NCBI RefSeq assembly: GCF_003364255.1
Contig: NZ_NXLR01000010.1
Location: forward strand, 1 to 64,000
Source: Helicobacter marmotae
GTDB lineage: Bacteria > Campylobacterota > Campylobacteria > Campylobacterales > Helicobacteraceae
Direction: 5' to 3'
Length of the DNA stretch: 64,000 nucleotides
Made by a program: the position numbers and the translations under genes. Positions 29,808-45,396 of this stretch are shown one piece after another (position 1 is the first letter of the stretch; each line of letters opens with the position of its first letter). Below the pieces are notes generated by a model that worked only from the letters and a program-made list of their open reading frames with translations, made no database searches and was not told the origin of the DNA.

Positions 29808-30704
29808 CTAAAGATCTTTAAATAATGATTGTTGCCCCATAAATTGAGTATCAACCATCTGAGTAACATTATAATTCTTAACAAGCGATTCTTTTATCGA
29901 ATTTCTATTATTTTCACTCGCTCCTAAATGATAAAAATGTTCAACAATATCGATATTAAATTGCCCCCATAGGGTTGTCATGTAAACATTTTGCCTATAT
30001 TGATTACTATGCCAAGTTGAGAGCATAAACTTTGCTTGTGTTTTAGATAAAACATCATAAAGTTCTCGTTCTTTGCTTTCGCTCCATGCATTAAAATAAT
30101 CTGAATGCCTATCAATATAAGGAGGGTCGCAATAAATAAAATCTCCTTCTTTGGCAGATTCTAAACTTTCTGTAAAATCACAGTTTCTAAATTCATAATC
30201 ATTAATTTTTAGCAATTTGCTAACCCAATCAATCTGATTGGTTATTTTGGTAATATAACTCTGTGAAAATCGATTGTCTTTCTTACAAAAAGGCACATTA
30301 AAACCTCCTTTGGAATTAAATCGCATTAACCCATTAAAGCAACTACGATTTAAAAATAAAAAATCAAAAGAATTGTGCGTTTCGTTGAATCTTTCTCGTA
30401 CTGCAAGATAATGTTTTTGCCCATATTTTTGCAAAAAAGAACCCTCTTTGTTAAGATATATTTTCATAGAATTTTTAGTGATAATTTCATTTTGAATATT
30501 TTTATAAAAGCGGATAATATGCGGATTATTATCACTAAAAATAGCTTTTTTGGGGGCAATATTAAAACCCACAACACCGCTACCCATAAATGGCTCAAAA
30601 TAAGTACCGCTATTTTTATCCCATTGCAAAAGCCTTTGAATATCTACAACCAACTTACTCTTAATGCCTTGAATCTTAAGCGGTGGAATTAGCACATTAT
30701 TCAT
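29808..30704 (-). CDS. Type II N6-adenine DNA methyltransferase, M.EcoRV-like (D12 class)
   Basis: Alpha-class (D12) methylase of 298 residues, the same length as M.EcoRV and alike throughout from memory of that sequence: PPLKIQGIKSKLV, EPFMGSGVVGFNIAPK (motif I), FLFLNRSCFNGLMRFNSKGG, IYCDPPYIDRHSDYFN (motif IV DPPY), STWHSNQYR and HFYHLGASE. It would protect GATATC by methylating adenine. It overlaps the endonuclease gene by 8 bp. It lies between bioF and a DUF262 gene, inside the restriction-rich zone. Confidence 0.88.
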   Translation of the reverse strand: MNNVLIPPLKIQGIKSKLVVDIQRLLQWDKNSGTYFEPFMGSGVVGFNIAPKKAIFSDNNPHIIRFYKNIQNEIITKNSMKIYLNKEGSFLQKYGQKHYLAVRERFNETHNSFDFLFLNRSCFNGLMRFNSKGGFNVPFCKKDNRFSQSYITKITNQIDWVSKLLKINDYEFRNCDFTESLESAKEGDFIYCDPPYIDRHSDYFNAWSESKERELYDVLSKTQAKFMLSTWHSNQYRQNVYMTTLWGQFNIDIVEHFYHLGASENNRNSIKESLVKNYNVTQMVDTQFMGQQSLFKDL

Positions 30705-31491
30705 TGTTTCCCCCTAGTTTTCCCCTATATGCAAGATATTCTTTAAGCTTGGTAATTTTCTTAATATTACCTTTGGAATCTGCAATATTGATCTGTCCAT
30801 AATTAATCCAATAATCATCAAAAATCTCTTCGCCTAATTCCGAAAAAGTACCTTTTTCACTAAGAATGTCATTGATATTTTTAATACTTCCTATGTTTGC
30901 AGTATTTCCACTACCACTAGAATCGCTTGCAATTTTATATTTTTCAACAAAAAAGAAATCGAGATTTTTAATGGCAGATTGAATGCTTCTTAAGTCTTGT
31001 AACGTATATTTTTGTAATTCATTAACAATAACTCTATCATAAATGACACCCAAACAAAAATGCCCTAGGTATTCTTTATAGGGGAATTGAATATTTTTAT
31101 GCGATTCTCTATTTCTAAAATATTCTCCATGAGAACCTAATGTAAAGCCATTGCAAAGTGCTGGGTTATTTTCAATACGATATGTTGTTTTTAAATCTAC
31201 AGCAAATTTAATGTGAGAATCTATCTTTGAAACGAAAGATAAGTCGGGATAATAATTTTGATGATTAGGCAAAATGACATTGAAATTGTATTGCATAGCA
31301 AAGTCTTGCACAAATTGAAAGATATGAATTTCTAAAATTTTGGAGATAATTTTAGTGTCATTAGAAATGCTAAAAATTGTCTTGTTTATATCAATAAATC
31401 CTTTAATTTTCCATTCATTGTTCTCGCAAATTTGTTCCTTGAGGTTCTGTAAGAATTTCCTAAAATAATTTTTAAAAATTTGCTTATCCAT
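30697..31491 (-). CDS. Type II restriction endonuclease, EcoRV family (predicted GATATC)
   Basis: 264 residues counted from ATG 31491. The catalytic triad is conserved with EcoRV spacing: Asp83 (in QNYYPD), Asp99 and Lys101 (in FAVDLKTTY), matching EcoRV D74, D90, K92. The DNA-recognition R-loop is kept as SGSGNTANIGSI, and the FTLG..., IQFPYKEYLGHF and DYWINYGQ blocks also match. One Thr of the loop is Ala. An ATG at 31515 overlaps the -10 box, so 31491 with AAGGGTC upstream is preferred. Gene order is endonuclease then methylase from the same promoter. Confidence 0.87.
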   Translation of the reverse strand: MDKQIFKNYFRKFLQNLKEQICENNEWKIKGFIDINKTIFSISNDTKIISKILEIHIFQFVQDFAMQYNFNVILPNHQNYYPDLSFVSKIDSHIKFAVDLKTTYRIENNPALCNGFTLGSHGEYFRNRESHKNIQFPYKEYLGHFCLGVIYDRVIVNELQKYTLQDLRSIQSAIKNLDFFFVEKYKIASDSSGSGNTANIGSIKNINDILSEKGTFSELGEEIFDDYWINYGQINIADSKGNIKKITKLKEYLAYRGKLGGNNE

Positions 31492-31507
31492 TCTTGACCC
31501 TTCATTT

Positions 31508-31535
31508 TTTATCATTATAGCAACTTAGTTTTATG
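31508..31535 (-). promoter_or_regulatory. shared promoter cassette, copy 1 (EcoRV-like unit)
   Basis: On the minus strand the stretch reads AAAACTAAGTTGCTATAATGAT, with a perfect TATAAT -10 box at 31514-31519. The same block precedes the orphan methylase (34896-34921) and the TaqI-like methylase (38855-38877). The TSS would fall about 15 bases before the endonuclease ATG. Confidence 0.7.
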
Positions 31536-31704: not shown

Positions 31705-31739
31705 GGGTAGAAATGATTAAAAATCGCAAGGGGTGTAAA

Positions 31740-33530
31740 ATGGATTTTTTTAAACCAGACAAGGAGTGTGTGGCGGAGTTGCTTGGGGAAGATAAAAGAA
31801 AGTTTATTATCCCTGAGTACCAAAGACCTTATCGTTGGGAGAAAGATCAATGTGAAACACTATGGAATGACATTATGCGAGTGTTTGGTGATAGCGAAGA
31901 TGATGAAGGCAAAGATATTGAAGAATATTTTTTGGGCTCTATTGTTGCCTATGAAAACGAAAACAAAGAGCTAGAAATTATCGATGGACAACAGCGCATT
32001 AGTACTTTTATTTTGCTTTTTAGAGCATTTTATGAATGTTTTAAGACCGAAGATAAAGCAGATGATTATTTTAAAGATTTTGGCAAATGTATTTGGGATT
32101 ATGAAAGAAACGTAGGTTTTTCTTATGATGCAATGCGCTTAGAAAGTAGAGTAGCAATAAAATCTGATGTGGAGAGTTTAAGAGCAATTTTAAGCAAAGA
32201 CATAGATATTGATAACCTCAATAGGGAGTCTTTGTATGTGAATAATTATCTTTTCTTTTATGAAAAGCTTCGAGAGTTTAAGCAAAATAAATCAGGGAGC
32301 TGGATAAAACTTTGTGATTTTGTTTTAGGAGAAAGGCTTTTTATTTTACGTGTGGTTTGTGATAGCCAAGAATCAGCAATGACTATTTTTAATACTCTTA
32401 ATTCGCGCGGTATGCCTCTTAGCAGTGCAGATATTCTCAAAGGACATATATATAAAGAGAAGAAAAATAAGCAACAAAACACTGAAGAATTTGTAAAAGA
32501 TTGGCAAGAGTTAGAAAGTATTGTCGAAGATGATAAAGAAATTAAAGACGTTGATTTTTTCTTTTTGCAATATATGCACATCATAAGGGCATTGAACGAT
32601 GATTATGATACAACCACACCGGGTGTATTGGAGTTTTTTACCAAAAAAGATAGTAAGGATAAAAAAGATAAGAAAGCCACAAAATATGGAGCAAATGATG
32701 GGTGGCTTTTTAAAGATAAAACTATACCTTTCATTATGGATTTAGCAAAATTTTGGGCAAAACACCAAAACTATTTGAGTGATTTATCTTGTCGCTATAT
32801 AAGTATTTTGTATCTTTTTGAAAATACAAGTTGGAAAAGTTTTGTGAGTTGTTTAGTTTGGAAAAATAAAGATTACTTTAATAAAAGCGATGAGTTTGAT
32901 AAAGAGGGATTTAGCAAGGATTTTGATAGGCATTTGCTAGAGCTCATTAAACATATAACCTTACCACTTTTGAACAATAATGCAGGCACAAGTGTAATGA
33001 ATGATATTGCTTTTAGACTGAATGCAAATGTATTGCAAGAGAGGGACTTGTATTCTAGTTTTGAAAATTTTGAGCACAAGTACAGCTTTCCAACTTTTGA
33101 AAATTTCAAGGAGTTTTGTTTTTGTCTTAAAAATCCAAGAAAAATGAAATATCTTTTATATCTTTACGCCTTTATTTATAGTGATTTTAAGGAGAATATA
33201 GAAGTCTCAAAGTTACAAATAGAGCATATCTTGCCGCAAAAATGGCAGGGATATGATTTTGATGGCTGGACAGAAGAACTCCATAAAGCATACTTAGAGC
33301 AAATTGGCAATAAAATTTTGCTTGATGGTAAAACAAACAATAAATGTAGAGACAATTTCTTTTCATATAAGAAAAGATTCTATAAAGAAAACGCAGATGA
33401 ATCCCTAAAAGAAATCAAAAACTTAGCTGAAAGAGTGTCAAACACTTGGACTAAAGAAGATATAGATGAGAGAAGTAAAGAAATGTATCAAAGATTGCAG
33501 AGATTTTTTGATAATAAAACAAAAGGTTAA
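31740..33530 (+). CDS. GmrSD-like DUF262/DUF1524 restriction protein, left copy
   Basis: A 596-residue protein with an N-terminal DUF262 (ParB/Srx-like) domain: FIIPEYQRPYRWEKDQ near residue 23 and the nucleotide-handling IIDGQQRISTF near residue 81. The C-terminus is a DUF1524 His-Me/HNH nuclease with IEHILPQKWQGYDFDG and IGNKILLDGKTNNKCRDNFF. This layout is that of GmrSD/BrxU-type Type IV restriction enzymes that cut modified DNA upon NTP use. Start ATG 31740 has GGGGTG upstream; an ATG at 31713 lies near the expected TSS. Faces inward in the zone, mirrored by a paralogue at 46224-48071. Confidence 0.85.
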   Translation: MDFFKPDKECVAELLGEDKRKFIIPEYQRPYRWEKDQCETLWNDIMRVFGDSEDDEGKDIEEYFLGSIVAYENENKELEIIDGQQRISTFILLFRAFYECFKTEDKADDYFKDFGKCIWDYERNVGFSYDAMRLESRVAIKSDVESLRAILSKDIDIDNLNRESLYVNNYLFFYEKLREFKQNKSGSWIKLCDFVLGERLFILRVVCDSQESAMTIFNTLNSRGMPLSSADILKGHIYKEKKNKQQNTEEFVKDWQELESIVEDDKEIKDVDFFFLQYMHIIRALNDDYDTTTPGVLEFFTKKDSKDKKDKKATKYGANDGWLFKDKTIPFIMDLAKFWAKHQNYLSDLSCRYISILYLFENTSWKSFVSCLVWKNKDYFNKSDEFDKEGFSKDFDRHLLELIKHITLPLLNNNAGTSVMNDIAFRLNANVLQERDLYSSFENFEHKYSFPTFENFKEFCFCLKNPRKMKYLLYLYAFIYSDFKENIEVSKLQIEHILPQKWQGYDFDGWTEELHKAYLEQIGNKILLDGKTNNKCRDNFFSYKKRFYKENADESLKEIKNLAERVSNTWTKEDIDERSKEMYQRLQRFFDNKTKG

Positions 33531-34956: not shown

Positions 34957-36258
34957 ATGAGGCATATAGGTCTGCAAGAGCATTTAACTAAGCTTGATTT
35001 AGCTCACATTTGGCACCCTTGCACGCAGATGAAAGACCATGAAAATCTCCCCCTTATTCCTATAAGAAAAGCCAAGGGGTTGTATTTATATGATTTTAAT
35101 GACAAGGCGTATATGGATTGCGTGAGCTCGTGGTGGGTTAATCTTTTTGGGCATGCAAATGAGTATATTAACCAAAAGATAAAAGCCCAGCTTGAGACTT
35201 TAGAACATGTAATTTTAGCGGGCTTTACGCATGAGGGTATTATCACGCTTTCTCAAAGGCTTTGCGCGCTTTTACCCACTCAGTTTCAAAAGTGCTTTTA
35301 CGCAGATAATGGCTCTAGTGCGGTAGAAGTAGCCTTAAAAATGAGCTTTCATTATCATCTCAATAAAGGGCAAAAAAGGTATAAATTCTTATCTCTTAGC
35401 AATGCCTATCACGGCGAGACTTTGGGGGCTTTGAGCGTGGGTGATGTGGCATTATATAAAGAGACTTACAAACCCTTACTTTTAGAGTGCTTAAGCACCC
35501 CTGTGCCACAAAGCGAGGACTTTGAAAAAGAGTTAAAAGCCTTAAAAAATACCTTAGAAAAAGAGGGTAAAAATATTTGTGCCTTTATCTTAGAGCCATT
35601 GGTACAATGTGCGGGGAATATGCACTGCTATAGTGTGAAATTTATCGATGAAGCCCTAAAACTTTGCCGTGAATTTAATGTGCAAGTGATTTTTGATGAA
35701 ATCGCAGTAGGTTTTGGACGCACAGGAGAGATGTTCGCGCTTGAATATTGCGAGCAAAAGCCCGATTTTCTTTGCCTCTCAAAGGGCATTACAGGAGGCT
35801 ACCTGCCCTTATCCGTAGTGATTACAAGTGATGAAATTTATAATGCCTTTTATGCACCATATGAAGCACAAAAAGCATTTTTGCATTCTCATTCTTACAC
35901 AGGTAATGCCCTTGCTTGTGCGGCTGCAAATGCCGTGCTAGATATATTTGAAAGTCAAAATGTGTTGGAAAATAATATGGTTTTATCAAGCTTTATTTGG
36001 GAGAAATGGCAAGGTTTAAAAAGCTTTGATTGTGTGGGCAATCTTCGGCATTGCGGTATGATTTTTGCCTTTGATTTAGTGGGATTTGAGGGAGTGCGTA
36101 AGGGCTTAGAGGTTTTTAAAAAAGGCTTAGAATATGGCTTGCTTTTACGCCCATTGGGTAATACTATCTACCTTATGCCTCCTTATATTTTAACCAAAGA
36201 GCAGGCAAGCTACATCATAGAATCGCTTGTAAAAATCCTTAAAAGCCTCACACGATGA
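34957..36258 (+). CDS. bioA: adenosylmethionine-8-amino-7-oxononanoate aminotransferase
   Basis: PLP aminotransferase using SAM as amino donor to make 7,8-diaminopelargonate. Class III aminotransferase blocks are present: [12 protein letters not shown] at the N-terminus, [46 protein letters not shown] and the PLP Lys in CLSKGITGG. It is 434 residues, normal length. ATG 34957 follows AAAGGAAAGTG. Its 3' end overlaps a broken methylase gene by 4 bp. It is separated from bioFGC by 5 kb of restriction genes, unlike compact biotin operons. Confidence 0.93.
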
Positions 36259-37001
36259 AATACAATGAGATTGATCTAAAACATTGGCGTCAATGTCAAA
36301 TTAATGTAGATTCTTTATGGCTTATTGCAAATAGAGATAAAAGCGGTAAGCATAAAAATATCTATCATGGGAATTTTATCCCTCAAGTTGCCCGCGAATT
36401 ATTTACACGCTATACCAAAAGGAATGAGATTGTGCTTGATGCGTTTTTGGGTAGTGGCACAAGTCTTTATGAAGCCCAAAATTTAGGGCGTAAGTGTATT
36501 GGTATGGATATAAATCCTAAGATTTTAGAATATGTCAAATCACAAATGGATGGAGAAAGTTGCTCTAGCACATATTATTTTGGATTCTGTGATAATACAG
36601 ATAGTTCTAGCGTAGATTGCTTTATGCAAGAAGGCTTAGAATCTCTAGGAAGCAAAAGTGTGCAATTTATAATTTTACATCCTCCTTATATGGATATTAT
36701 TCGCTTTAGTAAAAACGCTAATGATTTGAGCCATTTAGATAATCTCACAGATTTTATCTAAGCCTTTTTAAAAAGCACTCAAAATGTGATAAAATTTTTA
36801 GATGTTGGACGCTATTTTGCGCTTGTCGTTGGCGATGTATATAAACAAAGCGAAGTAAAGCCTTTGGGATTTTATGTAATGGATAGCATTAAAAAGCATT
36901 TTAATGTGAAGCTTAAGGGAATCATAGTAAAAAATATAGAGGGCAATCGCGGAAAATCTCGGACAATTAGTCAAAAAGGAATCGAAAAATGCAAGATTTA
37001 A
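36255..37001 (+). pseudogene. DNA methyltransferase gene interrupted by an in-frame stop
   Basis: The first 168 codons hold a SAM motif (LDAFLGSGTSLYEA, about residues 61-74) and the catalytic motif LHPPYMDII. A TAA at 36759-36761 then ends the frame. The same frame stays open afterwards: AFLKSTQNVIKFLDVGRYFALVVGDVYK..., giving 71 codons from the GTG at 36786 to the stop at 37001. No base shift is needed to join them, so one nonsense change (for instance from a Tyr codon) would explain it. The tail overlaps the next nuclease gene by 13 bp, as expected for a methylase-endonuclease pair. The product is probably inactive unless read through. Confidence 0.78.
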
Positions 37002-37714
37002 CCTACGAAGGAGCTATAGAGCAAGTGATGCGAAACAATGGTGGATTTGCTTCACTAAAACAAATCTATAATGAAGTTTGGCTTTTTAAGGATAAAAGCA
37101 AAATTAGCGGTAAAACCCCACACAACACCATTCAAGAAAGAGTGCAAAGAAGCAAAAAGTTTTTTAGAATCGGACTTGGTATTTATGGGTTAAGTGAGCT
37201 AAAAAATAAAATCTTGCTTAGCGAACAAATACCCAAAACCAAAGAAGAAAAGGTTGAAAAAACTCACGCAAGGATTCAAGGAATGCTCCTTGAGCTTGGA
37301 AATCTGCGCGGATTTGATACTTATACCAACGACAAAAGTTGGACTTTTGATGGCAAGAATCTTGGAATGCTAAGCTCTCTTAAAAGTGTGCCACCTTTTA
37401 CTTATCAGCAAATCATTGATAGAAATATCGCATTTTGTGATGTTGTGTGGTTTAGTGGGGAAGAGTTTTTATATCCTACAAGGATTTGTGAAGTCGAGCA
37501 TAGCACGGATTTTAGGGACGCACTGCTTAAGTTTAAAGAACTTGAATTTTTTAATGTTGAATTTTATTGCATTTCTAGTGAAAATCGCAAAACAAAATTT
37601 GATAGAGAAATCACAAGGGCGACATTTAAGAGCATAAAATCAAGGGTAAAATTTCTTACTTATGATGAAATTATTTCTGCTTATGAGTTTGAAAGGCAAA
37701 AAATAAATTTTTGA
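36989..37714 (+). CDS. restriction endonuclease with N-terminal HARE-HTH domain
   Basis: 241 residues. Residues 5-70 form a HARE-HTH winged helix (EGAIEQVMRNNGGFASLKQI...GKTPHNTIQERVQRSKKFFRIGLGIYGL). The C-terminal half carries a PD-(D/E)XK-like core around FCDVVWFS and ICEVEHSTDFRDALLKFKEL. It is fully open and follows the broken methylase with a 13-bp overlap, so it looks like the nuclease of that pair. An intact nuclease beside a dead methylase is unusual; another methylase may protect the sites or this nuclease may be silent. Confidence 0.7.
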   Translation: MQDLTYEGAIEQVMRNNGGFASLKQIYNEVWLFKDKSKISGKTPHNTIQERVQRSKKFFRIGLGIYGLSELKNKILLSEQIPKTKEEKVEKTHARIQGMLLELGNLRGFDTYTNDKSWTFDGKNLGMLSSLKSVPPFTYQQIIDRNIAFCDVVWFSGEEFLYPTRICEVEHSTDFRDALLKFKELEFFNVEFYCISSENRKTKFDREITRATFKSIKSRVKFLTYDEIISAYEFERQKINF

Positions 37715-37768
37715 AACAATAATTAATTTGACAAAATTAAAAAAAGGAAAATTTATCAGCATTATTGT

Positions 37769-38506
37769 ATGGGGCGGGAGCGGTTTTTGGATTCCCAAAA
37801 GGCAGAATCTAGCGTGTGCGATTCTCATAAGAGACAATATTTTAGCGACTATAATGGTGCAAAAATTGATGCGATTCGCACAAAGCTAGAGCAATGGCAA
37901 AAAGAGGGTAAAATCTCCTCACAAGCCTATTTTCACCTCCTTGCCTCACTTTTAGAATCTGCTGATAAAGTCGCAAATACCGCTTCTGTTTATGGAGCGT
38001 TTCTCAAACATCTCAAAAAAAGTGCGCAAAAGCCACTTGTGCTAAGCCCTGCGGTTTTTGAATACGATACACATTCGCACCCTGTTTTTAACGAAGATTC
38101 CAATACACTCATTCATAAAATCAAGGGTGATACTCTTTATCTTGACCCTCCATACAATGCGCGAGAATATGGGGCAAATTATCATTTGCTGAACACCATT
38201 GCACGTTATGATGACTTCACTCCAAAGGGCAAAACGGGCTTAAGAGAATATGAAAAGTCTAATTGGTGCAAAAAGGCAAAAGTTGCAAATGAGTTAGAAA
38301 GCTTAATCAAAAATGCAAATTTTGAATGGATTTTTTTAAGTTACAATGATGAGGGATTGCTGAGTTTAGAACAAATTGCAGAAATTTTAAAAAAATATGG
38401 CGCATATTCACTCAAAAGCCAAAAACACCAACGCTTTAAAGCAGATTCTAAAAGAATGCAAAAACAAGATTTCACAATAGAATATTTGCATATTTTAAGA
38501 AAATAA
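37769..38506 (+). pseudogene. N-terminally truncated D12-class adenine methylase
   Basis: 245 codons covering only the second part of a D12 methylase: YFSDYNGAKIDAIRTKLEQW, the ADKVANTASVYGAFLKHLKK block and the catalytic LYLDPPYNAREYGANYHLLN. The N-terminal part with the SAM motif (F-x-G-x-G) is missing; upstream lies only 54 bp and then the HARE-HTH nuclease. The first codons (MGRERFLDSQK...) do not look like the family and may be chance. Likely a remnant left by recombination. Confidence 0.72.
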
Positions 38507-38894: not shown

Positions 38895-40001
38895 ATGAGT
38901 ATTCAAACGCATTTAGATACCAAGCAAACTATTAATTTAGGAAGTTTTTACACACCTGATTTTATTGTGCAAATTGCACATTCAATGCTTAAAAAAACAA
39001 TACGCAACACTAAAGATTATATCTTGCTTGATAGCTCTTGTGGATATGGGAGTTTTTTAAATTTACAAGGCTTTAAGCAAAAAATCGGCATAGATATTGA
39101 CAAAGAGGCTTTAAAAAGAGCAAAAGATCGCTTTAAAAATCATTCAAGCTCTCCTATTTTTTTGCACCTAAATGCCCTTTATCAAGTAAAAAGAGAAAAA
39201 TTTCAATTAAAGCAAGATGATAAGCTTATCATTATAGGCAACCCACCCTTTAATGATAAAAGCTCTATAGTGCAAAAGCATTTAAAAGAAAAACAAACAT
39301 TAAAGATTGACAAAGAGCTTCAAACAAGAGATATTGGCATTGGTTTTTTACGCTCTTTTGATGTACTAAATGCTGATTATATTTGCGTTTTACACCCTCT
39401 TTCTTATTTAATTAAAGAGACAAATTTCAAAACCCTCAAAAATTTTTCAAAGCATTATGTTTTAGTTGATAATTGCATTATTAGCTCGCAAATTTTCTGC
39501 CCCAAATCTTTAAGCTATTTCCCCATAATCATTGCTTTATATAAAAAAGATAAGCAAGGAATGGATTTTAATTTTATTTCAAATTTTAGTTTTAAAAGCT
39601 TGGAGGGCAGAACTTTTAAACTGAGTGATTTTGAGTTTATTTCAAAATATATTGATAAATATCCTAACAAAAATCGCATAAAAGATTCTCAAAAAATAGC
39701 GATGTTTTACACAATGCGTGATATTAATGCCCTGCGCCGCTCTAAAACCTTTATTGACAAAGATTGCACAAATGCACTTTATATTACAAAAGAAAAATAC
39801 AGCCTTTATTGCTATGTTGATGTTTTTAAGATGATGATTTCTTGTGTGCCTTATTATTTGGGTAATTGCGATATTTTAATTGATTTTAAGGCTTTTAAAA
39901 ATTTAGAATCTCATTTTATCAAAGCAAGTGAAAATAAAGTAATAGATTCAAAAATTGAGGATTATTTTAAGGCTTTGTTAGGAGAACATTATGAGAATTG
40001 A
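38895..40001 (+). CDS. Type II N6-adenine methyltransferase, gamma class (TaqI/HincII-like)
   Basis: 368 residues with gamma-class order: LGSFYTPDFIV near the N-terminus, SAM motif LLDSSCGYGSF (about residues 45-55), then IGNPPFNDKSSI (catalytic NPPF). The C-terminal part would recognise DNA. It is followed by a small open frame that overlaps by 11 bp, the usual place of the cognate endonuclease. Expression probably comes from the shared promoter cassette. The target is not predictable from reading alone. Confidence 0.82.
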   Translation: MSIQTHLDTKQTINLGSFYTPDFIVQIAHSMLKKTIRNTKDYILLDSSCGYGSFLNLQGFKQKIGIDIDKEALKRAKDRFKNHSSSPIFLHLNALYQVKREKFQLKQDDKLIIIGNPPFNDKSSIVQKHLKEKQTLKIDKELQTRDIGIGFLRSFDVLNADYICVLHPLSYLIKETNFKTLKNFSKHYVLVDNCIISSQIFCPKSLSYFPIIIALYKKDKQGMDFNFISNFSFKSLEGRTFKLSDFEFISKYIDKYPNKNRIKDSQKIAMFYTMRDINALRRSKTFIDKDCTNALYITKEKYSLYCYVDVFKMMISCVPYYLGNCDILIDFKAFKNLESHFIKASENKVIDSKIEDYFKALLGEHYEN

Positions 40002-40482
40002 AAAATTGGAAAATCAAAAGATTTTTATAGAAATTCCACTCACCGCACAAAGTGGCAAAACTCGAGTAAAGGAAAGAAATAGTTTCTATGAATACGGCTT
40101 GCCCGTAGCCACAAAAACAAAAAGTTTTTCTCAAAAACACTATGTAGAATGGCAAATTGGCTACGATGTGGATAAAAAAGATAAAGAAAAACTATCTCTA
40201 AGCACCTTGCAGGAAACAAATTTTTTAGGAGCAAATGGCAAAAATAAAGCCTTGTATGAATTAAGTGAATATTTATATTATTTTAAAAAATGGAATTTTA
40301 TCAGTAAAGAAGAGCTTAAAAACTTATGTGAATTTTTATCTAATGTTAAAAATAATGAATTTTTAGATTCCAACCCTAATTTATCAATTTTAAGAAGCCA
40401 CCCTATAAATAAAAATATTTTGCAAATGAATTTTTGTTATTGTGAAGTTAAATATCCAGCTTTAATGTATAAATTTAGCTAA
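39991..40482 (+). CDS. probable cognate endonuclease, likely truncated
   Basis: 163 residues, starting at an ATG that overlaps the methylase stop by 11 bp. I do not recognise the family. It is Lys/Asn/Glu-rich with no clear PD-(D/E)XK or HNH motif in what remains, though FIEIPLTAQSGKTRVKERNS and EWQIGYDVDKKDKEK look like a folded domain. The stop codon lies exactly where a bioF remnant begins, which suggests the 3' part was lost in a rearrangement. Position argues for a restriction endonuclease; sequence does not prove it. Confidence 0.45.
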   Translation: MRIEKLENQKIFIEIPLTAQSGKTRVKERNSFYEYGLPVATKTKSFSQKHYVEWQIGYDVDKKDKEKLSLSTLQETNFLGANGKNKALYELSEYLYYFKKWNFISKEELKNLCEFLSNVKNNEFLDSNPNLSILRSHPINKNILQMNFCYCEVKYPALMYKFS

Positions 40483-40702: not shown

Positions 40703-42817
40703 TTAAGGTTTTTTCTCAATTTTTTTCTTAAATTGATCTTGTGTCAAATGCTCCTCCTCACTACTCCATATATCCCAAGAATCGCCCTTCTTAATGGGTA
40801 TATAAAAGCTATATTTTGTTTTTTGAGCGATTATTTTATAAAGCTTTTTTAGCTCTTGTATTTTGTCGTCATACTCGGTGCTGTTGATGTTTTGTTCGCT
40901 TGAGGTATTGAAACTTTTGACTTCAAAAATGTGGATTCTATCTGCCCAGTCTTTTAAAATAAAATCCGGATAAGAAAAATGATACCCCTCTAAATAATAT
41001 TCAAATTTCAATTGAGAATTAAAAGTAAAATTCTTACCCAAAAGATAAATTCTCTCATTGTTTATTTCAAGATGTTTTATCAGTCTTTGTTTTTTATCCG
41101 GAGCGTCCTCATCATAAAGATTAATTAAAAACCCTAGCCATTCTCTCTCCGATTCGCTGTCAAAGTAAAATTCCTTATTATTATTTTCCCATATCCATTT
41201 TATATCTTCTCTCTTAAAATCCGTTTTTTGCAAAACACTCTCCAAAGGCAAAACTTGCCCTTCGCCCACAAGCTCTAAGGTTTTTTCATAATCACACACG
41301 ATTTTTTCAAAGCCCTTTTTAATCTCATCAAAATGGACAGAGAATTTAAACCAATTTTTTACCGCTAGCTCCTCATTTTCTGCCTCTAAAACATAATTTT
41401 TGCAAAGTCCATAAAGAGGCTCATTGCCTTTATACTGCGCATAAAGTCCAAAAATATTATTTTTCCTTGCCTCTTTTTGCCCTAACTTTTGCAAAAAACT
41501 TTTTACATCAAAGGCATTTTGACTGCTTGTATCTTCTATTTTTTGAAGCCTTGAAGTGCGGATTGTAAATTCCTTTTGCACTTCATTTTCAAACAAGCCT
41601 CCCCTATTCTCGCCCCTTAGCCTCACACCCACGCTACTCTCACTCTTAGGCTTTATCCCATACACATACGCCACGCTTATAAGCTCTTGCAAACTCTCAC
41701 TTAAGTTCTCAAACTCAAGCAAATAAGGATTTCGCCTTACCCTGCCTATAACTTGCTCATCAAGTTGCTTTGACTGGCTATCTCGCATTTGATAAAGCAT
41801 ACAAGCCCTCGGTATATCCCAACCCTCGCTAATCACCATTTTAAAGATAATTATATCAATCGTGCTTTGATTGCTTTTTGCATAACTTTTCCATTTTTTC
41901 ACGCTTAAATTTTGCGTTTTTATCCTATCATTGGTATCGCTTTTATCTTTATTGCTCGCTTTGTCATCAACGATAAACATCCATTTTAAATGCGAAAACC
42001 GCTCTTTATTTAAGTTTTCTTTGATTACTTTTAACTCCTCATCTGCCTTGTTTTTATTAGAAATTTGTATGATAAGGCAAGGGTTTATCCCTAAATGTTC
42101 CACATAATCCTTTTTAAGTGCTAAAAACTTCTCTAAAGCCACTTCAAGCCCTGCCTCCTCATCATACTCCACTCTTTTTATAAGCCTTGCACTCATAGCT
42201 TCTTCCTCGCTTATACACACATCAGGGAATTGCCCTTTTGTAAGCTTTGGCGTAGCAGAGACATTCAGCACTTTCTCAAAATACCTCCCCTCTGTGTTTT
42301 TTGGTTTTATAATCAAATCATCTAAATTGCTTGTGGCGATATGGCACTCATCTTTTATCAAATAAATTTGTTTTTCCTTATACTCCTCCCCGCTTAGCTT
42401 CTCTTTAAAACCCTTTAAGCCTCGTAAAAACCGCACAAGCACACCTTGGTCTTTAAGCTTCTTTTTATCCGCATACAAATCCCTAGGTAGCACATAGACA
42501 TTATAATCTAAAGGGATATACAGGCTTTCTTCCTTTGTGCCTTCACTCTCTATTAAAAATGGCTTTAAATGCCTAAATTGCTCCTTAAAAGTGCAAAAAG
42601 CCTTGTAATTTTGCTCGCCTAAATCCCCCTTTGACAAGCTGGATACGACAAAAACGGCTTTTTCATTGCTACTTAGAATCTCATTCATAAATGAAGCCAT
42701 CATAAAAGTCTTTCCACTTCCTGTAGGGGCTTTGAAGGTCGTTTCTCTTTTATTTTTAAACACTTCTACAAGCTTAGCTACCGCCTGCTTTTGTAAATCT
42801 CTTGCTTCATTTGTCAT
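40703..42817 (-). CDS. Type III restriction enzyme Res subunit
   Basis: 704-residue SF2 helicase-nuclease that cuts DNA after ATP-driven movement when complexed with Mod. Walker A is FKAPTGSGKTFM (about residue 26), the DEAD-like box is LIKDECHIA, and motif VI is QVIGRVRRNP. Near the C-terminus FILKDWADRIHIFEVKSF gives the PD-(D/E)XK nuclease. It is shorter than many Res proteins (900-1000) but has both ends of the domain order. Its ATG overlaps the mod stop by 11 bp. It stays open regardless of the mod tract. Confidence 0.88.
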   Translation of the reverse strand: MTNEARDLQKQAVAKLVEVFKNKRETTFKAPTGSGKTFMMASFMNEILSSNEKAVFVVSSLSKGDLGEQNYKAFCTFKEQFRHLKPFLIESEGTKEESLYIPLDYNVYVLPRDLYADKKKLKDQGVLVRFLRGLKGFKEKLSGEEYKEKQIYLIKDECHIATSNLDDLIIKPKNTEGRYFEKVLNVSATPKLTKGQFPDVCISEEEAMSARLIKRVEYDEEAGLEVALEKFLALKKDYVEHLGINPCLIIQISNKNKADEELKVIKENLNKERFSHLKWMFIVDDKASNKDKSDTNDRIKTQNLSVKKWKSYAKSNQSTIDIIIFKMVISEGWDIPRACMLYQMRDSQSKQLDEQVIGRVRRNPYLLEFENLSESLQELISVAYVYGIKPKSESSVGVRLRGENRGGLFENEVQKEFTIRTSRLQKIEDTSSQNAFDVKSFLQKLGQKEARKNNIFGLYAQYKGNEPLYGLCKNYVLEAENEELAVKNWFKFSVHFDEIKKGFEKIVCDYEKTLELVGEGQVLPLESVLQKTDFKREDIKWIWENNNKEFYFDSESEREWLGFLINLYDEDAPDKKQRLIKHLEINNERIYLLGKNFTFNSQLKFEYYLEGYHFSYPDFILKDWADRIHIFEVKSFNTSSEQNINSTEYDDKIQELKKLYKIIAQKTKYSFYIPIKKGDSWDIWSSEEEHLTQDQFKKKIEKKP

Positions 42818-45396
42818 TTTTTAGCCTTTTTAACTCTTCTTTTAAAGCCTTTTCATAAACTGCTTCATCTTTATCTTGCATAGTAAGCTTTTTCATCGTG
42901 CTTTGGAAGTTCTCACACACCCACTTAATCTTTTCATGCATATTTTCAAATTTAGGCAGTCCATAAAGTCGCTCATCAATTTCTTGAAAAATTTCTTCAT
43001 TAAAAGCGCTTAAAACCTTCACCCGAGAAACTTCTAAATTACCCCCATAAGGTGCATTTTTCTCAAGCCATTTAAAATTTTTCTCTCCGTTGTAGCACTC
43101 TCCGCTCATTATTCTTTTAAGCCTTTTTGCCGTTACATCTTCAGCTATGCCATTAGGATTAAGTTCTGTTATCTCATCATTCGTTACTAAAATAAATTTT
43201 CTTTTGCCTCCGTCTTCTTTATTAAGCTCTAGCACAGCGTGAGCGGTGGTGCCAGAGCCGGCAAAGAAATCCAAAACAATATCTCCTTCTTCAGTGCTTG
43301 TCTTTTGGAGATAAAATGGCGATTGCTGCGTCTTGGCTTCGGTCATTACCCTTTGAGGTAACTCCCTTGCCTCGCCTTGCAAAGCCCCATTTTTATCTCC
43401 AAAATCCTGCTCACTTTTTGAAAACTCCTTTTTTAAGCCCTCGCCTTGTAAATTTCCAGAAACTCCACTTTTTGAAAAGTCTTGCGAACTTACTTCCGCA
43501 TTGCTTCCATTTTCACAAGCTAAAACGCTATCTTTTTGCAAATTCTCACTTTGCAAACCCTGCCCGTTTTTGTCATTCTGAGGCGAAGCCGAAGAATCTC
43601 TCTCAACATTGTCATTCTGAGCTTGTGAAACAAGCGAAGAATCTCTGTTAGAAATACCAGACTCATTGTCACCTCTAGCGGGAGTGGAAACAACCAAAGA
43701 ATTGCTGTTGGCATTTTTGTCATTCTGAACCCCTGCAAGGGGTGAAGAATCTCTCTTGGCGACTAGTGATTCTTTTAGAGATTCTTCGGTCGCACCTTGT
43801 GCTCCCTCAGAATGACAAAGTAACTGCCTTTCTAGTGATTCTATTTTTTCTTTTTCTATAAGGGGGAGGGGCTTGAATTGCGAAGTCGCTCCCTCCCCCT
43901 TATATATCCCCCACCCCGACGACGCTTTAAGAGGTGGCACTTCGTGCGATTTAATTTTATCGCAGTGAGAATATATCTCACTGCTGAAAGACGTTTGGGA
44001 CTTGTTGTCATCACGAACCACTGCAAGGGGTGAAGAATTGCTGTTGGCGACTAGTGATTCTTTTAGAGATTCTTCGGTCGCACCTTGTGCTCCCTCAGAA
44101 TGACAAGCCTCCTCCACACTTTCAGAATCTCCCGCCTTTACATTGGTAGAAATTTTGAGAAGATGCTTTATTAAATTTACGGGTTTGGGATAATCAAAAG
44201 CTTTTTTCATATTTAGCATTTCTAAATCATTATCCCCATATCTATTTGAAAATTTATTATCCACAAAAGTAAATTGAGAATAGTTTTTTTCTTTTTCCTC
44301 ATACTCTATATAATAACCATCTTTTTGGTCTCCTTTGATTGAGGCATACAAATATTTTTTTGGAAAAATTCTATTGTTTTTAAATTCTACAAAATCATTT
44401 TTAAGTGCAAATTCATACAAATCTTTTGACCAAGTCCAACGAAAAGCATTTTTTTCTTGTGTTCCACCGGGATAATATGTAGTTCCATTATGTATGATAG
44501 GATAGTCTAAGGAAGGGACATAACCTAAGCTACTTGTATCCAAAGCTTGTTTTGTGTGATATTTACCTCTTTTTGCTTCGTGTTTGTCGCTGTATTTAAA
44601 TGCATTATCTCCAACCATACTTATTTTATTAAATTTTAACGATTGTTTGTTTTTTGCATAACATAAAATATAGTCTAAATTATTTGTTGTTAAATTTGTT
44701 TGTGTTTTTCCTCCTTTAATTGTTAGTCTAGGGTATGTGCTCACAAAATTCCTCTCCCCAAACACTTCATCAAAAAGGCATTTTACATAGGCTTGATTTC
44801 TATCATCTATGGAGCAAAAGATTACGCCATCATCTTTTAAAAGCATTTTTGCCAAGTATAGGCGAGGGTAAAGCATGGAGAGCAAATTATCCCTTGAAAT
44901 GTCGTTTTCATAATTTGTGCTAGCGAAGTTTCCTAAATCATCTTTCCCGTATGGGGGATCTATATATACGACCTTTATGCGTTCCCGGTAAGTAATAAGC
45001 AGATTTAAAAGTGCCGGATAATTATCTCCGATAATCAGGCTATGAGTGAGCGGCTTTTGGGAATAGATATTTTTATAACCCCCCCCCCCCGGCGTTTGAA
45101 TCTACCTGTGTATCAGCATTTGAAGTATTTTGAATCTTGCTTTCAAAACTCAAACCTTCATCTTTTTTAAGGTAAAAAACTTCATCTGTAGCTTTCTCTA
45201 ACCTTTTATCAAAAGCAAAACCCGTGCGTTTCCAAGTCGTGCCAAGTGCGGCTATAGCAAAAGCCTCTTTTTCATTAATATTATCATTTAAAATAAGCTT
45301 TTCTAAAAGCTCATAATTTCCCTGCTCTAAAATCTTATCCTCCACCCTTTGGGCTAAATCTTTTAGAAGTGTTTCCTTTATCTCCTGTAGTTTCAA
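42807..45396 (-). CDS. Type III DNA methyltransferase Mod, phase-variable and OFF in this sequence
   Basis: Starts at TTG 45396 (AAAGGAG upstream) and reads 107 codons, then a G12 tract (45079-45090) throws it into a TAA. With eleven (or fourteen) G the frame continues: YKNIYSQKPLTHSL, GDNYPALLNLL, the catalytic VVYIDPPYGKDD (DPPY at residues 146-149) and on to the stop at 42807, in all 862 codons. Without correction only an internal 692-codon frame from 44885 remains, which lacks DPPY. The SAM motif is DIVLDFFAGSGTTAHAV. About 285 codons of repeat-derived sequence sit just before it. This is a classic phasevarion arrangement. Confidence 0.9.
43756..43818. repeat. 63-bp direct repeat, copy 1
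   Basis: Identical over 63 bp to 44044-44106, beginning TTGGCGACTAGTGATTC and ending CAGAATGACAA. It lies inside mod. Confidence 0.9.
44044..44106. repeat. 63-bp direct repeat, copy 2
   Basis: Second copy of the 63-bp direct repeat, 288 bp from the first. Recombination between the two would delete exactly 96 codons of mod without a frame change. Confidence 0.9.
45079..45090 (-). repeat. G12 phase-variation tract in mod
   Basis: Twelve C on the plus strand (twelve G in coding sense) after codon 102 of mod. G12 leads to a stop two codons later, G13 to a stop about 19 codons later, G11 or G14 keeps the full frame. Confidence 0.92.

Follow-up and report, generated by a model that had tools for sequence, protein, structure and literature searches.

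An intact winged-helix nuclease gene between two methylase relics in Helicobacter marmotae and its recurrence in the same slot of other genomes

In Helicobacter pylori, iceA1 and hpyIM form an NlaIII-like CATG system, and iceA1 and iceA2 share one slot (PMC13340068). The Campylobacter jejuni ST-677 cluster contains an adenine-methylase homologue (M1, fixL), an iceA1/nlaIII homologue and hpyIM (PMC4687069). For winged-helix fusion nucleases, 6mA-dependent type IV activity has been demonstrated; 87% have no methylase neighbour, and where a 6mA or 4mC methylase did directly adjoin, it was frameshifted (PMC11037411). For proteins uniting HARE-HTH and REase domains, recognition of modified DNA was predicted (PMC10853773). 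In S. pneumoniae the methyl-dependent nuclease DpnI and the methylase-bearing DpnII system are alternatives within one species (PMC3573125).

The locus described here lies in a stretch of 64,000 nucleotides of the Helicobacter marmotae genome (contig NZ_NXLR01000010.1), which we call the window. Its features are listed in Table 1, where G and L numbers are our handles for genomes and loci. It shares with the iceA1/iceA2 locus of H. pylori a slot ahead of a D12 CATG methylase, filled there by unrelated genes depending on the strain (PMC13340068), but the window has a winged-helix nuclease in the slot, a destroyed downstream methylase and an extra upstream methylase, M1. The three gene kinds of the ST-677 cluster, by description, match the intact operon of L023 and others (PMC4687069), whereas the window keeps relics only. 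With the winged-helix fusion endonucleases (DpnI-like PD-(D/E)XK-wH, wH-HNH, wH-GIY-YIG) the window family shares small size, a single chain, exchangeable nuclease domains and surroundings mostly without a methylase partner, in which adjacent methylases are sometimes frameshifted (PMC11037411). Here, however, a HARE-HTH-like winged helix precedes the putative PD-(D/E)XK domain in the chain, and the likeness drawn to those enzymes is one of architecture, not of sequence homology. The window nuclease appears to have the same domain pair as the HARE-HTH-REase fusions encoded close to Dnd phosphorothioate genes (PMC10853773). As with DpnI/DpnII, a stand-alone nuclease and a methylase-bearing restriction system appear as alternatives (PMC3573125), although the window leaves the old cassette as truncated relics and the methyl dependence of its nuclease is presumptive. 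On balance, we favour the reading that this is a wrecked CATG-type operon, in which a solitary, mobile, most likely modification-dependent (type IV-like) nuclease replaced IceA and left the methylase relics.

Table 1. Features of the locus, in window coordinates
Feature	Position	Strand	Basis
M1 methylase relic, residues 1-235 of about 266	36255..36956	+	PF01555 E 2.1e-14; 63% to intact L023 M1 over 1-235
In-frame TAA stop, codon 169 of M1	36759..36761	+	frame translation; homologue alignment
Junction, end of M1 homology to start of nuclease leader	36957..36988	+	M1 homology end 36956; G074 leader alignment
Intact gene of the 241-aa nuclease, with a HARE-HTH-like winged helix (N-terminal) and a predicted PD-(D/E)XK-type domain	36989..37714	+	open ORF; profiles
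Winged-helix (HARE-HTH-like) part, residues 5-70	37001..37198	+	common to HNH nucleases of G008/G115
Predicted active site, D151 (37439-37441) ... E168-V-E170 (37490-37498)	37439..37498	+	conservation in relatives
D12 methylase relic (hpyIM-like), residues 101-337 only	37748..38506	+	PF02086; L023 and G008 comparison

M1 is a methylase of the N6_N4_Mtase class with an HPPY motif. The 1.96 Mb genome has one copy, that of the window, whose start lies inside the bioA stop, likewise in G074. On translation, the frame 36255-36998 contains one TAA only, at 36759-36761, as the first-pass annotation had stated, and none of the 16 aligned homologues covering codon 169 (16 relatives taken from genome_contigs) has a stop in this column. 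That annotation also described the methylase frame as otherwise continuous, which did not hold: homology to the intact member ends at residue 235 and the last ~30 residues are lost. Full-length homologues (n=14, genome_contigs) measure 258-276 aa and carry an almost invariant C-terminal block, IWRYRAL..SDYYLFKHEYIFVFKK (pattern W..YRA......FKHEY..VF). The final codons of the window frame (SRTISQKGIEKCKI) are instead the upstream leader of the nuclease and align with the nuclease leader of G074, so M1 carries two lesions. When the intact L023 protein was modelled (14 sequences, mean pLDDT 75), residues 239-248 formed a helix and residues 257-264 the last strand; by this model the window M1 would be without its C-terminal helix and last beta-strand (beta7), and the stop precedes strands 5, 6 and 7. 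Even with a sense codon at 36759, M1 would not be restored, because the last strand is absent anyway. Resequencing of this codon, proposed earlier as the refutation, would leave helix and strand missing regardless. The suggestions that the stop is read through or that one base is wrong fail for the same missing C-terminus, and a single point mutation or read error is ruled out as the sole lesion. M1 appears inactive, broken twice, and its present role would be that of a leader ORF at most.

The overlapping nuclease frame was reported as fully open, and we confirm this over all 241 codons. Its start lies inside the end of the M1 frame, behind a Shine-Dalgarno-like AAGGAA at 36976-36981. The HARE-HTH label given to the protein is fair for the family, since 9 of 9 aligned relatives match PF05066 at the same place (all below the cut-off, best E 7e-4), but weak for the window protein alone (13.1 bits, E = 0.13, against a gathering cut-off of 25.9 bits). 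The family profile searched against the PDB returned forkhead winged helices (E 0.04-0.5). The REase_II profile PDLC03534 of PADLOC matched the window nuclease with E 0.0023 and its relative G118 with E 8e-8. The putative PD-(D/E)XK domain is predicted from sequence, the model of the window nuclease built from sequence alone having pLDDT 36.7; of the predicted active-site residues, D151 and E168 are conserved in 9/9 relatives and E170 in 8/9. The nucleases of the window and G074 are 90% identical in amino acids with dN/dS of 0.09-0.105 at dS about 0.5, while dS of the flanking bioA genes is saturated; the protein sequence is evidently constrained by purifying selection. Coupled translation through the stop had been expected to reduce nuclease output. 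This is unlikely, because the gene has its own AAGGAA and because G074 retains the nuclease with a leader shrunk to a 22-codon ORF.

In intact homologous operons (L023/G062 and G083, also in other phyla) M1 is followed by IceA of 224-229 aa (PF05315, E 2e-129), with a D12 methylase of ~335 aa as the third gene, and the window nuclease occupies the IceA position. A profile search of the window genome gave no match to PF05315. The D12 relic matches PF02086 with E 2e-28 (profile 92-250) and is 70% identical to the intact D12 protein of L023 over 101-337 and 88% (aa) to the G008 remnant; its first 100 codons, the N-terminal SAM-binding part, are lost. Thus, IceA being absent and D12 only a remnant, the window holds no IceA/NlaIII-hpyIM operon, but its flanks derive from one. 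Through these lesions the old operon has lost both its methylases, and by analogy with the IceA/hpyIM literature the D12 gene would have been specific for CATG. In the intact M1-D12 operons L025, L026 and L028 other nucleases adjoin M1 on its downstream side: that of L025 has 220 aa, and the others have 375-391 aa, the L028 one with a weak EVE/RE_Alw26IDE match. The slot seems to accept several kinds of nuclease.

How far does this arrangement extend? A nuclease in the slot with cut-back M1 and/or D12 was detected in seven other genomes (Table 2). The occupant in G008, G115, G007 and G009 has the same winged helix with an HNH catalytic domain instead (HNH_2, PF13391, E 3.6e-7 in G115). Between G008 and G115 the HNH nucleases show 85% amino-acid identity, whereas the methylase remnants on either side show 56% and 61%; identity steps up at the edges of the nuclease gene, the D12 junction (residue 30) is identical in the two genomes and the M1 junction nearly so. 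Being far more similar than its flanks, the nuclease gene evidently moves between genomes alone. It is itself broken in G007, G009 and G064 and so is not always retained. These comparisons establish that the slot is occupied recurrently, and by a horizontally mobile nuclease that is conserved and, in the window, intact. In G007 (L146, about 2339-2270, minus strand) the winged-helix HNH nuclease is out of frame at a seven-G run near codon 16, and this frameshift could be phase-variable.

Table 2. Contents of the slot in the window and in seven other genomes (residues or codons remaining; PD-(D/E)XK as predicted)
Genome	Left flank	Occupant	Right flank
Window	M1 1-235	winged-helix PD-(D/E)XK nuclease	D12 101-337
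G052	M1 to ~263	winged-helix PD-(D/E)XK nuclease	D12 261-337
G074	first 15 M1 codons after bioA	winged-helix PD-(D/E)XK nuclease	last 14 D12 codons
G340 (another family)	M1 to ~124	winged-helix PD-(D/E)XK nuclease	D12 45-337
G008 and G115	M1 to ~201-210	winged-helix HNH nuclease	D12 from 30, frameshifts
G007 and G009	IceA 1-32 and 1-65 respectively	winged-helix HNH nuclease	

A profile search for the nuclease family matched 35 of 397 genomes of the phylum. At the loci examined, relatives of the f2 family (Campylobacter-type genomes) often lie between housekeeping genes with no methylase partner of their own: in the his operon (L185, L187, L188), behind carB (L190-L192, L196, L198-L200) or beside purH (L193, L203), where gene names were assigned by Pfam on one representative per context and in the others by size and order. 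At the carB loci a methylase stands further on, which in G306 (L192) is paired with its own DpnII gene. Distant relatives on Halobacterium, Deinococcus, Azospirillum and Enterococcus plasmids had no annotated methylase within 4 kb. The exceptions are G216 and G135, where an apparently intact D12 methylase stands beside the nuclease, in G216 overlapping its start. In none of the 7 Helicobacteraceae genomes that carry the close nuclease intact is there an intact hpyIM-like gene, as compared with matches in 62 of 121 genomes, a count that is no independent test since most losses were made by the insertions themselves. The distant nuclease relatives G118, G059 and G028 coexist with intact D12 genes. 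Phage records gave no match to the nuclease. A 51% relative of the G118-type nuclease is present on the IMG/VR viral contig L204 (5001-5687), and phage carriage is therefore possible.

On the favoured reading, a solitary winged-helix nuclease gene replaced the IceA gene together with the inward-facing ends of both methylase genes, and the nuclease would work without a partner methylase. Its winged helix would recognise a DNA context that is modified, or foreign in some other way, and the putative PD-(D/E)XK domain would cut in a type IV, modification-dependent manner. Acting without a partner, it would require no protecting methylase of the host, and the stranded methylases would decay, or would be lost under selection if the substrate is of their making. 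The paradox of a nuclease without its methylase would dissolve, since nuclease and M1 were never partners. A modification-dependent stand-alone enzyme is favoured by the winged-helix fusion precedents (PMC11037411) and the HARE-HTH-REase prediction (PMC10853773), and like the winged-helix type IV enzymes the window nuclease is a stand-alone gene without partner methylase. The relatives in G216 and G135 count against it, as they adjoin apparently intact D12 methylases in the manner of an ordinary type II pair. Methyl-CATG is a possible substrate. G6mATC is an unlikely one, given two Dam-family methylases in the genome, one of them in an AlwI-like system, and is also disfavoured by the Campylobacter-type relatives beside DpnII and an intact methylase. 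There is a small chance that the close nuclease family is DpnI-like for methylated CATG and lives only where the hpyIM-type methylase is dead; IceA-hpyIM and the nuclease would then be mutually exclusive, and slot invasion would be an epigenetic takeover, the newcomer destroying the methylases that would make the host a target.

The first-pass annotation was right that an intact nuclease stands beside an inactive methylase, but not in treating the two as partners, because M1 belongs to the M1-IceA-D12 operon. Comparison of operons rules M1 out as the cognate of the nuclease. The supposed dependence on M1 is also at odds with relatives that have no adjoining methylase or only methylase remnants. 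We find it scarcely credible that M1 and the nuclease were until recently a functional pair and that a single point mutation, or an error of sequencing, accounts for the loss of M1. The N-terminal 168 codons of M1 are indeed well kept (dN/dS 0.09-0.14 against G008), as are 48 of the 53 family-invariant residues within aa 1-200, but the C-terminal block is lost independently of the stop, M1 is also cut back in G052, G340, G074, G008 and G115, and after intact M1 come IceA or, in few cases, other nucleases, never the window type. For a type II pair, moreover, there is no active cognate methylase, M1 and D12 both being lesioned, nor a consistent pairing: intact M1 mostly accompanies IceA, and the relatives of the nuclease either stand alone or adjoin methylases of unrelated kinds.

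The chief rival, which is also among the options of the first-pass annotation, is an ordinary type II endonuclease with its site protected by a different methylase, encoded elsewhere in the genome; it is rather unlikely, though it deserves some weight. At least five intact D12 and at least six intact N6_N4 methylases are encoded elsewhere in the window genome, and the overlap of genes in G216 would suit such an enzyme. So would G075 (L043, 3735-6809), in which a 56% relative of the nuclease lies in an AlwI-like operon directly behind a D12 methylase that has an intact 70% homologue in the window genome (C3:710-1837). However, the D12 methylase of G075 has its C-terminus cut, the second methylase of that operon is lost and its R gene is in pieces, while the C3 homologue is part of an AlwI-like system that has an R gene for itself. 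The majority of relatives have no adjoining methylase, and those that adjoin different relatives are unrelated. We see only a slim chance of a homing-type selfish endonuclease copying itself into restriction operons. Two unrelated operon types (CATG, AlwI) were invaded, and the common junctions and identity steps of G008/G115 would fit homing, but the same mosaic is obtainable by ordinary transformation, junctions differ in the remaining genomes, resident sequence was replaced rather than interrupted, and many of the relatives have a fixed place within housekeeping operons.

When a restriction system decays, the nuclease is expected to go first, loss of the methylase being deadly. The reverse pattern, with methylase lost and nuclease kept, recurs across several genera, and its simple resolution would be that the surviving nuclease never belonged to the pair. 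This recurrent replacement is the noteworthy part of the finding. The locus may represent a repeatable exchange in which a stand-alone nuclease takes over from one that depends on a methylase, and it carries the iceA1/iceA2 slot story beyond H. pylori. The same winged helix joined to two catalytic domains also offers a candidate set on whether HARE-HTH-like domains read DNA modification.

The window as a whole is a restriction/defence island. On the minus strand, 29808-31515 holds an apparently intact EcoRV-like pair, a D12/Dam-family methylase with a PF09233 endonuclease (E 4.9e-111), and on the plus strand 31713-33530 encodes a GmrSD homologue (type IV, modification-dependent) with both domains present. 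Downstream, 38895-40482 (plus strand) carries an Eco57I-like methylase (E 1.4e-4, below the cut-off) and then an ORF of 163 aa whose match to R.PabI is weak and truncated (E 6.4e-5); this may be a further system, decayed or divergent. It is followed at 40703-44885, on the minus strand, by a type III-like pair of a ResIII helicase-like protein and an N6_N4 methylase.
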